Below are positions 22,525 through 32,264 of a stretch of DNA of 38,156 nucleotides, piece after piece (the first letter of the stretch is position 1; every line of letters begins with the position of its first letter). The stretch is from NCBI GenBank assembly GCA_025358885.1, contig JANYHW010000062.1, positions 1 to 38,156 of the forward strand. Direction: 5' to 3'. The position numbers and the translations under genes are program-made. The stretch comes from Cytophagales bacterium (GTDB lineage: Bacteria; Bacteroidota; Bacteroidia; Cytophagales; Cyclobacteriaceae). The notes beneath the pieces are model-generated. The model did no database searches. It was given only the letters and a program-made list of their open reading frames with translations, and was not told the origin of the DNA.

Positions 22525-23151
22525 TTAGTCTGGAGCGTTTCTGGTAAACCAATCACGTTCTGAAGTGGTTTTCATTTCGGCGGTGACTCGCTGGCTGATT
22601 TTTTCAAGGGCATTGCGCAGGGCACGGTTGATCATGGTATGCTCGATGCACTCATCGTCACCCATTCCCAATGTCTCCATCATGGCCTTCAGGGAAGTGG
22701 AGCCAAAGGATTCAAACAGGGCATCTTCCATCGACAAACAAAAGCTGATGAGGGCTTGTGGAAACCTGGCAGAAATCATTCCAACGAGTGTGTTTTCAGT
22801 TGAAAGCAGGGGATACCTCCCCAACAAAAGGAAGACGACCTTCGTCTCTACAGAAATGTTATTAATAAAGGTGCTGGAAGCAGACACGTCGGCTACGACA
22901 AGGGTATTTTTGTTTTGCCAAAAATCCTTTCCAGAGAATGCGTCGACATTTTGGTAAGGTACTCCCGAAGATTCGATGAAAGCACTCAGGTTCCTGTGCG
23001 ACTCATTGAAAAATGTGATCAGCACAGGAAGCTTACCGTCTTTCAGAGCAAGGAGTGCTTCCCGGACAATTCCTTTCAAGCAGGCCTGGCGGGTCTTCCA
23101 AACCTTGTTGCCAGGCTCAATAGCTGACTTCTTCGAGGAAAACAAACCCAT
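22525..23151 (-). CDS. Degenerate SecA second-motor-domain (NBD2)-like protein, stand-alone
   Basis: A 208-residue soluble protein that aligns by eye, in order, with NBD2 of preprotein translocase ATPase SecA. VWKTRQACLKGIVREA and GKLPVLITFF (17-48) match the SecA segment usually reading GQPVLVGT; SSGVPYQNVDAF (61-72) matches the segment ending in VLNA; FCLSMEDALFESFG (137-150), LGMGDDECIEH (161-171) and INRALRNALEK match SecA's LSMEDALM, LGM..GE.IEH and following helix. The ATPase motifs are gone: the TNMAGRGTDI region reads VADVSASSTFIN (86-97) and the arginine-finger region QLRGRSGRQG is lost. NBD1, with Walker A and B, is absent. It cannot be an ATPase by itself. ATG 23151 is chosen because the longer frame would overlap the upstream gene. 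It is third in a minus-strand unit, 23 bp after the acyl-CoA enzyme. Homology is likely; role unknown. Confidence 0.7.
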   Translation of the reverse strand: MGLFSSKKSAIEPGNKVWKTRQACLKGIVREALLALKDGKLPVLITFFNESHRNLSAFIESSGVPYQNVDAFSGKDFWQNKNTLVVADVSASSTFINNISVETKVVFLLLGRYPLLSTENTLVGMISARFPQALISFCLSMEDALFESFGSTSLKAMMETLGMGDDECIEHTMINRALRNALEKISQRVTAEMKTTSERDWFTRNAPD

Positions 23152-23174: not shown

Positions 23175-25487
23175 TTATGCCTTCCTGGCAATGGGCGCCG
23201 ACAGGCAACTCTCTGGAATCTTAAATGCATTCACCAGCGGCACGGCTTCCTGCCGGATATCCCAGCAAAGCTGGTTCACCATCTTTCTGATGGCCTTGGT
23301 TTTTGCAGCCTCCATGTATCCGCTTTCGAGGTACCAGCCTTTGTTTTTCTCCATTTGGGAAAGCGCGAAAAGCTGGCAAAGTTTTTTCAACACATTCTTG
23401 CAGCCGGCATCTTTGGTTTGATTGACCTGAAGTATGAACTGCTCGAGGATGACACGTTCTATATGTGCAAATCCTACCTGAAGGAGATGATGCTGACTCA
23501 CGTTAAATGCATCGAATGAATCCATGCCCGCGCTGATGTGTTTCTTTAACCTCTTGGCCGAGGACATGAGGATGTCCCGCTCCCTGAATTTGAAGGCATT
23601 CATGTGGAACTCGGAATCAAGCAAGTGCTCTTCATCGGTACTCCGGGTGATAAATGGATTCATCTCTGAAATCGAAGTAGAAGCCTGACCGGCAACATAA
23701 TTCAATACACCGATGAGATTCATGTTGGCAAATTCCTGTTTGAATTCTGTAAGACGGCTCTTGGCAACCAATTGCATGAGCACGGTATTGTCACCTTCGA
23801 AGGTGGTATAGATTTCGGAGTCATTCTTAAGGCGATCAATCCGGTTTTCAGACAGATAGCCTTTGCCGCCACAACACTCCCGGCATTCCTGAAGTGTATG
23901 CGTGGTGTTCCAGGTGGTAAAAGATTTGATACCAGCCGCAAGCGCCTCAATCTCCTGCATGTCGGCCTCCGTGCGTTTTAGAAACCTGTCCGTCAGATAC
24001 TGCAGGGCGAAGTGAAGTGCATAGACATTGGCCAACAGGGGCATCAGTCTGCGCTGGTGGGTGCGGTAATTCAGGATCGGCACTTCTTTTCCGCCTTCTG
24101 GTCCGAACTGTGGGCGCTGGTCGCCATATCGAATCGCGATTGTCAAGCCTGTCTTGGAAGCGCTGTTCCCTGATCGGGGTATGCCAATACGGCCACCTAC
24201 CAATGTTCCAAGCATGGTAAAGAACCGACGATTGTCGCTGGAGATGGGACTTGCAAACGCTCCTTCGGGGGTGACACTGGAGAAGCGATCAAGCATGTTA
24301 TCATACGGAATCCGAACATGAGTAAACTGAATCTTGCCGTTGTCAACTCCATTTAATCCCATCTTCCGTCCGCAGTCTTCGATGACCACTCCGGCAATTT
24401 CCTTCCCCGATTTTTCCCTGAGTGGCACGAGGAACGCACTTACTCCATAGTCTTTGCCATCGAGTATCAGCTTAGCAAATGTAGTCGCCATTTGGCCGTG
24501 GCGTGCGGCATTGCCGATATACTCTTTCTTCGCAAGTTCATTTGGCGTATGAATGACAAAGGATCGCGTCGCGTGGTCGTATGTGGCCGTCGTCTCAATA
24601 CCCCGCACATTGGATCCATGACCAGTCTCTGTCATGGCAAAACAACCTGGCAGCTCCAGGCTTCCAATGGATTTCAGGTATTTCTTGTGGTGCTTCTCGG
24701 TGCCAAGGAAGTACACGCTCATGCCAAAGAGCCCAAACTGTACACCGAACTTAATCACCAAACTGAGGTCATGGTAGCTGAGTGCCTCCATAATGGCAAA
24801 GTATTTAGACATGTTTCCTTGTCCGCCGAATTCTAACGGGTAGGCCATGGATCCATATCCCTGTACGGCGAGGTGCTTGCACCAATGCAGCACCTTTTCC
24901 CTATAATCATTCAGGTTATCCGTATATAAATAGGCAAATTCCGGATCTGAAATAACGGTCTTGACTTTCTTGATGATATCAGCCTCAGGTCCATCCAACA
25001 ATTTCGAAAGAGTATCAACATCAAAGGTGTGCTGCGTTGCCCGCTGCTCTGTGATCGTAGTCCTTTTTTCTGGAAGGAATTCAAATATCGCCTCACCTTC
25101 AATCAGGCCAAGCATCCCTTCCACATCGAGTAAAGATTGTTTCGCGGCCTGAAGAGAATCATTCATGAACCCATCTCCTTTTAGCTGCGCAAGAGACACG
25201 CCGATGTCAACCAACCCGAGTTTTTGGCCGGGCGCGACACCCTGCACAGCGCTTCGTATTTCTGCCAGCCAACCTTTGAATTCATCAGGGGTAGGCGGCG
25301 ATAAAGGATTCAATTGATCGTTTAAGTAATCCCTCTCATTTTCTTTCAGCCACGTCTGTTTGCGAATCAAGTCCCTCAATGTCTTGATCTCGCTGGGGGT
25401 AAGTACGGCATCCGACCACACCTCATAAAAGATTGGAAGGAATACGTACAGGTTGGGATTGGCTTTGAGAAGGGGGGACTGTAGCAT
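23175..25487 (-). CDS. Acyl-CoA dehydrogenase/oxidase-like flavoprotein with long N-terminal extension
   Basis: A 770-residue FAD enzyme of the acyl-CoA dehydrogenase superfamily, expected to catalyse the first oxidation of fatty acyl-CoA. Typical dehydrogenases are about 380 residues. Here some 150 extra N-terminal residues precede the helical domain, and a long C-terminal part follows the core. The core has FAMTETGHGSNVRGIETTATYD (two overlapping blocks, about 283-304), close to acyl-CoA oxidases, and a C-terminal GGKGYLSENRIDRLK and TTFEGDNTVLMQ that positions the flavin and base. It is therefore oxidase-like; use of O2 or an electron carrier cannot be told. It begins 17 bp after the cyclophilin gene and is followed after 23 bp by the SecA-like gene, forming a three-gene unit. 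Confidence 0.9.
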   Translation of the reverse strand: MLQSPLLKANPNLYVFLPIFYEVWSDAVLTPSEIKTLRDLIRKQTWLKENERDYLNDQLNPLSPPTPDEFKGWLAEIRSAVQGVAPGQKLGLVDIGVSLAQLKGDGFMNDSLQAAKQSLLDVEGMLGLIEGEAIFEFLPEKRTTITEQRATQHTFDVDTLSKLLDGPEADIIKKVKTVISDPEFAYLYTDNLNDYREKVLHWCKHLAVQGYGSMAYPLEFGGQGNMSKYFAIMEALSYHDLSLVIKFGVQFGLFGMSVYFLGTEKHHKKYLKSIGSLELPGCFAMTETGHGSNVRGIETTATYDHATRSFVIHTPNELAKKEYIGNAARHGQMATTFAKLILDGKDYGVSAFLVPLREKSGKEIAGVVIEDCGRKMGLNGVDNGKIQFTHVRIPYDNMLDRFSSVTPEGAFASPISSDNRRFFTMLGTLVGGRIGIPRSGNSASKTGLTIAIRYGDQRPQFGPEGGKEVPILNYRTHQRRLMPLLANVYALHFALQYLTDRFLKRTEADMQEIEALAAGIKSFTTWNTTHTLQECRECCGGKGYLSENRIDRLKNDSEIYTTFEGDNTVLMQLVAKSRLTEFKQEFANMNLIGVLNYVAGQASTSISEMNPFITRSTDEEHLLDSEFHMNAFKFRERDILMSSAKRLKKHISAGMDSFDAFNVSQHHLLQVGFAHIERVILEQFILQVNQTKDAGCKNVLKKLCQLFALSQMEKNKGWYLESGYMEAAKTKAIRKMVNQLCWDIRQEAVPLVNAFKIPESCLSAPIARKA

Positions 25488-25504: not shown

Positions 25505-25945
25505 TTATTTTTCATCCACGATGACAACTTTCTCCATCACATCGCCCTGCTTGACCTTATCAATTACGTCAAGACCTTCAAATACCTTACCGAACACGGT
25601 GTGGTTTCTGTCGAGGTGCTTGGTGTTCTCCCGATTATGGCAAATAAAAAGCTGTGATCCACCTGTATTGCGCCCGGCATGGGCCATAGAGAGAACTCCC
25701 TTGTCATGAATCTGGTTAGCACCTGTCAACTCACAATCAATGTGGTATCCCGGACCACCATTTCCAACACCATTAGGGCATCCACCCTGGATCATGAAAT
25801 TTGGAATTACCCTATGGAAAATGAGACCATTATAGAATCCCTTTTGTGCGAGGTCTATGAAATTCTTGACAGTTTTTGGGGCATCTTCTTCAAAGAACTT
25901 AATCTTCATCACGCCCTTTTTCGTATGTATTTCTGCTATCTTCAT
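25505..25945 (-). CDS. Cytoplasmic cyclophilin-type peptidyl-prolyl isomerase
   Basis: A 146-residue single-domain cyclophilin without signal peptide. It catalyses cis/trans isomerisation of peptidyl-proline bonds. Active-site residues are present: FHRVIPNFMIQGG with Arg45, Phe50, Met51 and Gln53; GSQLFI with Gln98 and Phe100; and His115 near the end of the site. The Trp that binds cyclosporin in eukaryotic forms is replaced (KHLD), normal for bacteria. It is the first gene of a minus-strand unit with the acyl-CoA enzyme and the SecA-like gene, and its start is only 27 bp from the divergent gene at 25973, so promoters must be compact or overlap coding DNA. Confidence 0.95.
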   Translation of the reverse strand: MKIAEIHTKKGVMKIKFFEEDAPKTVKNFIDLAQKGFYNGLIFHRVIPNFMIQGGCPNGVGNGGPGYHIDCELTGANQIHDKGVLSMAHAGRNTGGSQLFICHNRENTKHLDRNHTVFGKVFEGLDVIDKVKQGDVMEKVVIVDEK

Positions 25946-31205: not shown

Positions 31206-32264
31206 ATGAGGACATTGGTGTGTATGATGATGTTGCTGGCTAACCTTGGTTGGAGCCAGTCCAATCTAAAGGCTGAGGAGAGTGATTTTGTAATAGACAA
31301 TTTCAGGTTTTCACAGGGAGAGATTCTGCCTAAACTTAATCAGCATTACATCACGTTGGGAAAGCCAATAAAGAACAGCGCCGGCAAAGTGATCAATGCC
31401 GTACTTATAATGCATGGGTCAACTGGCAATGGGGGTGGATTTCTGAGCGAAAGATTTGCAGGAGTATTATTCGGGCCCGGTCAATTGCTGGATGCTACAA
31501 AATATTTCATCATCCTTCCCGATGCCATCGGCCATGGAAAATCAAGCAAGCCCAGCGATGGTCTTCGCATGAAATTTCCGGCATACACCTATGATGATAT
31601 GGTGAAAGCCCAATACCTGTTGCTCACAGAACACCTCGGCGTGAATCACTTACGGCTTGTCATGGGCACATCCATGGGCGCCATGTTCACCTGGGTATGG
31701 GGTTATACCTATCCTGACTACATGGATGCCCTCATGCCATTGGCGAGCCTCCCAGTTGAAATTGGCGGAAGGAACCGCATGCTTCGCAAGATGATCATCG
31801 ATGGTATAAAGAATGATCCCGAATGGAGGGACGGAAATTATGTCGCTCAGCCTCCCGGAATTACTACGGCAATCAATTCCCTGCTGGTGATGGTCAGTAG
31901 TCCGCTGCAATGGCAAAAAGCAGCACCTACGCGAGAGCAGGCTGAAAAGTTTCTTCAGGAGCAAATTGACCGGTATAGAAAGAGCCTGGATGCCAACGAT
32001 ATGATTTATGTCTTCGATGCTTCCAGGTATTACAATCCCGATCCTCATCTTGCTCTCATCAAGGCGCCCCTTTTCGCAATCAATTCGGCCGATGATCAGG
32101 TCAATCCCCCCGAGCTAGGCATTATGGAACAGGAGATTAAGAAAGTGTCCAGAGGTCGGTATATCCTGCTCCCAATTACAGATGAGACCCGCGGGCATGG
32201 CACACATTCTATTCCAAAAATTTGGAGCAATTATCTCGCCGAACTATTGAAGGCTTCGGAATAG
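31206..32264 (+). CDS. Exported alpha/beta hydrolase, homoserine acetyltransferase-like fold
   Basis: A 352-residue protein with a signal-like N-terminus (MRTLVCMMMLLANLGWSQS, cleavage near 18). The alpha/beta-hydrolase fold follows the MetX pattern: LIMHGSTGNGGG (67-78) as oxyanion region, GTSMGAMFTWVW with nucleophile Ser156, a likely Asp296 or Asp297 in NSADDQVNPPE, and His331 or His334 in RGHGTHS. Despite MetX resemblance, export argues against homoserine acetylation, so it is better called a hydrolase. It sits 1 bp after the exported cyclophilin and 17 bp before the SDR gene. Confidence 0.85.
   Translation: MRTLVCMMMLLANLGWSQSNLKAEESDFVIDNFRFSQGEILPKLNQHYITLGKPIKNSAGKVINAVLIMHGSTGNGGGFLSERFAGVLFGPGQLLDATKYFIILPDAIGHGKSSKPSDGLRMKFPAYTYDDMVKAQYLLLTEHLGVNHLRLVMGTSMGAMFTWVWGYTYPDYMDALMPLASLPVEIGGRNRMLRKMIIDGIKNDPEWRDGNYVAQPPGITTAINSLLVMVSSPLQWQKAAPTREQAEKFLQEQIDRYRKSLDANDMIYVFDASRYYNPDPHLALIKAPLFAINSADDQVNPPELGIMEQEIKKVSRGRYILLPITDETRGHGTHSIPKIWSNYLAELLKASE

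Follow-up and report, generated by a model that had tools for sequence, protein, structure and literature searches.

Stand-alone SecA NBD2 domains without ATPase motifs: an apparently undescribed family, mainly from Bacteroidota

As an essential protein, SecA is mostly studied as a single motor. It is represented by the NCBIfam model TIGR00963 and by the Pfam domains PF07517, PF21090 and PF07516, and its NBD2 (IRA2) has the same fold and the same order of elements as the family of short proteins described here, which is referred to as pseudo-SecA. The segment following motif VI and the junction LGMxEDExIEHxMVxxAIxxAQxK are likewise common to both. Unlike SecA, which measures 837-1115 aa in 30 SecA frames, the family proteins have a length of about 174-229 aa, are without NBD1, the preprotein-binding domain, the scaffold, the wing and motifs V and VI, and carry a C-terminal tail of their own. 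The SecA2 accessory motors are similar in that a second SecA-related gene is present beside the housekeeping secA, but SecA2 is a full motor ATPase; when 49 family members were scanned with two SecA2 models, each model was matched by one member, weakly (best E=0.0014). Shortened forms of SecA for which a separate role is proposed have also been reported, namely SecA-N of a proposed outer-membrane-protein pathway (PMC7137807) and a SecA form without the C-terminal tail, which is the secA product missing only about 70 C-terminal residues (PMC13178939). In the excerpts of these two sources neither form is presented as an NBD2 with a gene to itself.

The window, i.e. the whole stretch of DNA that was analysed (38,156 nucleotides from a Cytophagales bacterium), contains the pseudo-SecA coding sequence (P0001) on the minus strand at 22525..23151, with an ATG start at 23151 and the stop codon within these coordinates. 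The encoded protein of 208 aa had been read in the initial annotation as a separately kept, catalytically dead SecA NBD2, and the order of NBD2 elements given there was found again, with LSMEDAL from residue 139, LGM from 161 and IEH from 169. Residues 139-190 (LSMEDALFESFG ... LGMGDDECIEHTMINRALRNALEKISQRV; 22582..22737, minus strand) are the equivalent of the SecA NBD2/scaffold junction. Residues 112-119 (22795..22818, minus strand) read RYPLLSTE, where the family consensus is HYPLxxKE and SecA has ERHESRRID; SecA motif VI is lost right after this position. The short hydrophobic N-terminus, residues 1-8 (MGLFSSKK; 23128..23151, minus strand), is the window's version of the Phe-rich start of the family with one Phe only, and its pLDDT is below 50 in the AF2 model. 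Residues 197-205 (SERDWFTRN; 22537..22563, minus strand) form a family-specific tail with the consensus SxxxWxxxN, which is helical in the AF2 models of the window protein and of the short member L080 and was absent from the aligned SecA sequences. Within the family the window copy is divergent, with RYPL in place of HYPL and, as in SecA, SMEDAL where most members have SLDEPL. An antisense open frame of 130 aa within the gene (22565-22957, plus strand) is probably a chance frame.

The window protein was matched by the NCBIfam SecA models TIGR00963 (E=4e-10) and NF009538 (E=2.8e-10) with a score of 39 bits vs the curated NCBIfam cut-off of 814 for SecA, by the Pfam model P-loop_SecA (PF21090) at E=1.5e-5 with 25.1 bits, under the gathering score of 27, and by PDB SecA chains at E=1.3e-6. 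A profile built from 49 relatives matched E. coli SecA at E=4.9e-19 across the NBD2-to-scaffold stretch. The AF2 model of the window protein, computed from 17 sequences, had a mean pLDDT of 88.0 and a pTM of 0.85, and a Foldseek search of this model against the PDB returned SecA or SecA2 on ranks 1-33; for L080 the AF2 pLDDT was 88.8 and ranks 1-19 were SecA or SecA2. The profile and structure comparison proposed at the outset thus gave a significant profile match and SecA as the best PDB match for the predicted fold, and by these comparisons the similarity to SecA exceeds chance. With high confidence the window protein is assigned to a family with a single origin, whose members are SecA NBD2 domains that stand alone and are not ATPases.

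The distribution of the family was determined at several levels. With the window protein alone as query, a stand-alone copy was found in 17 of 35 other genomes labelled as the same genus. Named genomes were scanned with one peptide pattern and the best 80 of 405 confirmed stretches were kept; among these best 80, 49 were located in ORFs shorter than 320 aa (stand-alone), and the other 31 belong to SecA frames, 548 to 1111 aa long, some of them cut by contig ends. By record title the stand-alone members belong mostly to Cyclobacteriaceae/Cytophagales and to Chitinophagaceae (Ferruginibacter and others), and further members were found in Pedobacter nototheniae, in two Kaistella and in one Bacteroidales MAG. 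Single members labelled Burkholderiales and Phycisphaerales come from MAG contigs 21-24 kb in length and may have been binned wrongly; a relative was detected on a 92-kb contig in a second genome of the order of the Phycisphaerales-labelled genome. In the phylum-wide search a match in a frame of less than 300 aa was obtained in at least 5 of 198 genomes, the own genome included, in a list that reaches E values of about 1e-14, so that copies that are broken or have diverged strongly may have escaped it. The taxonomic family of carrier G182 yielded 20 of 147 genomes (this centre and one disrupted copy included) and the order of the Phycisphaerales-labelled genome 2 of 81 (centre included), while the order of the Burkholderiales-labelled genome had no carrier beyond the centre (1 of 120). 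The distribution is patchy. In a tree of 85 sequences, which was built without L062 and L074 and took 7 of the 24 members of the profile-search set, the 55 stand-alone proteins formed one clade with a UFBoot value of 100 and no SecA inside. The clade sits on a long stem (1.04), and its placement relative to Bacteroidota SecA is possibly affected by long-branch attraction. The gene is therefore not a singleton: homologous stand-alone genes exist, as one clade and mainly in Bacteroidota. A viral origin was set aside, since none of the 54 pattern matches in a scan of viral contigs was a relative. In tblastn searches of plasmids, 8 records were found with the window protein and 7 with the short member, 3 of each being annotated secA; the remaining records had no annotation or no listed feature at the match, and a stand-alone plasmid copy among them is possible.

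The view of the initial annotation that no such family had been described agrees with the databases and literature searched: scans of the 49 members with Pfam and NCBIfam brought up no model of their own, and no account of a stand-alone SecA NBD2 family was found among the papers listed from an open-licence library. The family, mainly from Bacteroidota, is apparently undescribed.

The four closest pairs of pseudo-SecA genes had dN/dS values of 0.033, 0.093, 0.133 and 0.140 at dS 0.15-0.34, and more distant pairs with finite dS had values up to 0.18. The low values in the closest pairs indicate purifying selection, and the picture of a SecA NBD2 fragment kept as a tidy, non-catalytic gene was thereby upheld. 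A decaying fragment of a secA duplication would fit the patchy distribution, the disrupted copy found in G393 and the altered C-terminal frame in L062 and L063, but the single clade, the many intact copies and the low dN/dS argue against it; on account of the dN/dS values and the intact frames this explanation was rejected and is given hardly any credence. Since the copy in G393 is disrupted and the frame in L062 and L063 is altered, some lineages can probably do without the gene. The loci L062 (8543-8585) and L063 (8543-8612) are from related MAGs that share the altered frame at approximately the same place of the C-terminal tail, with an ambiguous base at this place in one of the two.

As the initial annotation had held, NBD1 is missing: no match to PF07517 was obtained for the window protein at E values up to 10, and neither the preprotein-binding domain (PF01043) nor the scaffold/wing domain (PF07516) was matched in it by Pfam; PF07516 was touched weakly by 2 of the 49 family members (best E=0.0035). 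The proposed loss of TNMAGRGTD and GRSGRQG was borne out in alignments with 22 and with 30 SecA NBD2 sequences, in which the MAGRGTD columns (motif V) are gaps in 47 of 47 family rows and a counterpart of GRSGRQG (motif VI) is absent from the family; these alignments and the retention counts given below omit the three family rows L062, L063 and L074. Judged from its sequence, the protein is SecA-derived, yet it is not SecA by SecA's defining features. A complete SecA is present in the window genome besides the fragment, namely one protein, 1115 aa long, in which each of the four SecA Pfam domains is found, and the sole PF07517 match of this genome is on contig C175. Stand-alone copy and full SecA occurred together in all 8 genomes checked for both genes, which had been reached via named loci.

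Retention of SecA residues was counted at those columns in which 90% or more of 30 SecA sequences agree. From the front of NBD2 229 of 1034 cells were retained (22%), from the surroundings of motif V 23 of 940 (2%), from GGL through motif VI 143 of 1269 (11%), from FYLSLEDDLMRIF 112 of 329 (34%), from the NBD2/scaffold junction 419 of 517 (81%, a value inflated because 7 of the 11 junction columns sit in the peptide pattern by which most members were found) and from the scaffold helix beyond the junction 52 of 705 (7%). In the four junction columns outside the search pattern 120 of 188 cells were kept (64%). An earlier count with 22 SecA sequences, which are the 30 minus 8 SecA sequences without AQxK, gave 22, 2, 12, 42, 82 and 7% for these regions in turn, with 460 of 564 cells in the junction. 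In these alignments the retention is concentrated at the NBD2/scaffold junction.

The arginine-finger motif has a role in ATP hydrolysis. A protein that is shaped like NBD2, is without motifs V and VI and coexists with SecA could be thought of as a trans-acting inhibitor or regulator that replaces NBD2 on NBD1 of SecA and blocks ATP hydrolysis for want of this motif, and it would suit such a role that NBD2 is described, in the excerpted text of PMC6123708, as intramolecular regulator of ATPase 2, with nucleotide bound between NBD2 and NBD1. However, the NBD1-facing motifs are the least conserved ones, at the 2% and 11% of cells given above, and competition with NBD2 on NBD1 of SecA is disfavoured because these ATP-facing motifs, the surface needed, were lost; an inhibitor of this kind is considered improbable. 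Still less probable is that a nucleotide or small ligand is bound in a remodelled motif V/VI cleft via HYPLxxKE. In the family alignment of 49 rows the columns of H112, P114, L115 and E119, which replace SecA motifs, hardly vary, but P-loop (due to the absence of NBD1), motif V and motif VI are all missing, and the window copy has Arg in the His column.

Within the junction, K184 of the window protein aligns with K633 of E. coli SecA and R176 with K625, with a spacing of eight residues in the alignment to the PDB chain. All 46 family members parsed for the K625/K633 count, from which four further rows dropped out, have Lys at the K633 equivalent, while 22 Lys and 8 Arg are present in 30 SecA sequences; with Lys in 22 of 30, this column falls outside the columns conserved in at least 90% of SecA, and it had looked conserved in SecA because the set of 22 required AQxK and excluded the 8 SecA with Arg. 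The K625 equivalent is Lys in 21 and Arg in 7 of the 46 parsed members (28 of 46 with either). In the profile-search set, which is not independent as at least three of its genes are also in the first set, 20 of 24 members were parsed; the K633 equivalent was Lys in 19 of these 20, and AQxK was represented by Lys in 19, Gln in 19 and Ala in 18.

For E. coli SecA, the excerpted text of PMC6692507 reports that deletion of the N-terminus or of residues 604-636, with K625 and K633 inside, abolishes the contact with the uL23 tunnel loop, that the N-terminus also serves contact with SecYEG and phospholipids, and that the acidic FEVEVE patch of E. coli uL23 is SecA-binding; the excerpt of PMC6620043 names two SecA regions, one of them the N-terminal helix. 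The segment kept in the family spans the counterpart of the K625/K633 region. Since this segment is covered and the Lys equivalent to K633 is constant in the parsed members, pseudo-SecA is tentatively regarded as a non-enzymatic docking factor that would use the ribosome-, membrane- or partner-binding surface of SecA. In such a docking factor, the short hydrophobic N-terminus would touch the membrane or the ribosome, and the junction, corresponding to the K625/K633 area implicated in uL23 contact, would serve as the binding site for SecA itself or for one of its partners. Pseudo-SecA would then act in trans on early protein export and would compete with SecA or help to deliver clients. A docking or adaptor role of this kind in early export is possible, if doubtful, and the full proposal, in which a separate SecA NBD2 working without ATP gates or redirects early export in trans, at the ribosome exit, the membrane or SecA, is for now rather unlikely. 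Modulation of SecA or of a substrate, as suggested in the initial annotation, is a possible role as well. The junction may also be kept as part of the fold instead of as an interface. The uL23 of the window genome is collinear with PDB uL23 chains and, at the FEVEVE position matched by eye, has YGVNVE with one acidic residue vs three in E. coli, which would weaken the ribosome version of the docking model.

The N-terminus was compared with that of neighbouring proteins, which keep their longest-ORF starts, and L074 was omitted. At least two Phe in residues 2-8 were present in 46 of 49 family members vs 38 of 471 neighbours. Among the members with untouched starts 38 of 38 passed, and among the 11 with chosen starts 8 passed; in ten of these 11 the start codon had been shifted to a Met resembling the motif, and the eleventh is the window copy, which begins at an internal ATG. 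SecA N-termini were Phe-rich in 4 of 25 only. Starts that are hydrophobic plus basic were found in 39 of 49 family members, 15 of 25 SecA and 56 of 471 neighbours.

The family would represent a natural separation-of-function protein, in which NBD2 alone, with the ATP motifs lost and the junction kept, is selected beside full SecA, and what the NBD2/scaffold junction binds besides the rest of SecA becomes a directly testable question. The family could also explain weak 'SecA' matches on short proteins in Bacteroidota genomes. If true, action in trans at the ribosome exit, the membrane or SecA would constitute a layer of Sec control that was not found described among the open-licence papers listed.

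In the window, an acyl-CoA oxidase-type protein (ACOX-type; 23175..25487, minus strand) is encoded 23 nt upstream of pseudo-SecA, followed after a gap of 17 nt by a cyclophilin-type peptidyl-prolyl isomerase (25505..25945, minus strand). The presence of both genes on the same strand, as initially annotated, stands, but the operon as a clue to function does not, since this neighbourhood was seen nowhere else. Neither the acyl-CoA oxidase/cyclophilin neighbourhood nor any single neighbour across lineages recurred among the 17 relatives, the 51 loci and the 73 loci examined, three genes being counted twice among the 73 (L066/L137, L077/L142, L089/L141) and loci L097 and L098 missing. The search for synteny shared with this neighbourhood had a negative outcome in every other locus examined, and a function derived from the operon was dropped because no neighbour recurs across lineages. 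The neighbours do not predict the function of pseudo-SecA, and the two genes are not considered part of the system. Besides pseudo-SecA, a single window ORF was matched close to a copy of the 17 relatives, namely a short-chain dehydrogenase (SDR) at 32222 with 29-30% identity; short-chain dehydrogenases are a very common family.

In the clade of the window the usual order is ArsC-like protein, pseudo-SecA and a pbpC-type gene, the latter comprising transglycosylase and transpeptidase in the three copies scanned with Pfam. In 12 of the 73 loci, every one from this clade, the pbpC-type gene is found immediately downstream of pseudo-SecA, and in two more it is nearby. In the relative G023 the row reads alpha-2-macroglobulin, pseudo-SecA, desaturase, 149-aa ORF and pbpC-type gene, whereas a similar row of the window genome consists of alpha-2-macroglobulin, desaturase, 144-aa ORF and pbpC-type gene without pseudo-SecA. 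From this difference, the gene probably moved in the lineage of the window, or was lost there and gained at another place. The row in the window genome is locus L135 (contig C88, 10000-26000), and its desaturase is sphingolipid-desaturase-like. In loci of the Chitinophagaceae type the gene is typically located between divergent uvrA and methionine-pathway genes; of the 73 loci, 32 have uvrA no more than six genes away, and 29 have a methionine-pathway enzyme. SDR genes occur in the context of pseudo-SecA in other loci, and no Sec genes were among the recurrent neighbour clusters that were annotated.

Such variation of the context by lineage (pbpC-type gene, uvrA/methionine, SDR, acyl-CoA oxidase in the window), together with the strong divergence at the front of NBD2 (229 of 1034 cells kept), would suit a domain exapted for a job outside Sec export, e.g. 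as an envelope- or metabolism-linked adaptor keeping only the fold. However, the best-kept part is the SecA-specific junction, which is more than the fold, and no one alternative pathway recurs across lineages; exaptation is thus possible, but is viewed with reserve.

Two further proteins were observed near pseudo-SecA. A protein of about 206 aa (7191-7808 in L073), whose start looks by eye like a signal peptide and for which Pfam gave no match, has similar genes in 13 of 73 loci; it is located directly upstream of pseudo-SecA in 12 loci, one gene being counted twice, with gaps of 23-134 nt, and two genes upstream in one further locus. In the Cyclobacteriaceae/Cytophagales loci L050, L058 and L060, a protein of 398-405 aa, by eye similar to an AAA-type ATPase (GARGTGKT), is encoded between the ArsC-like gene and pseudo-SecA.
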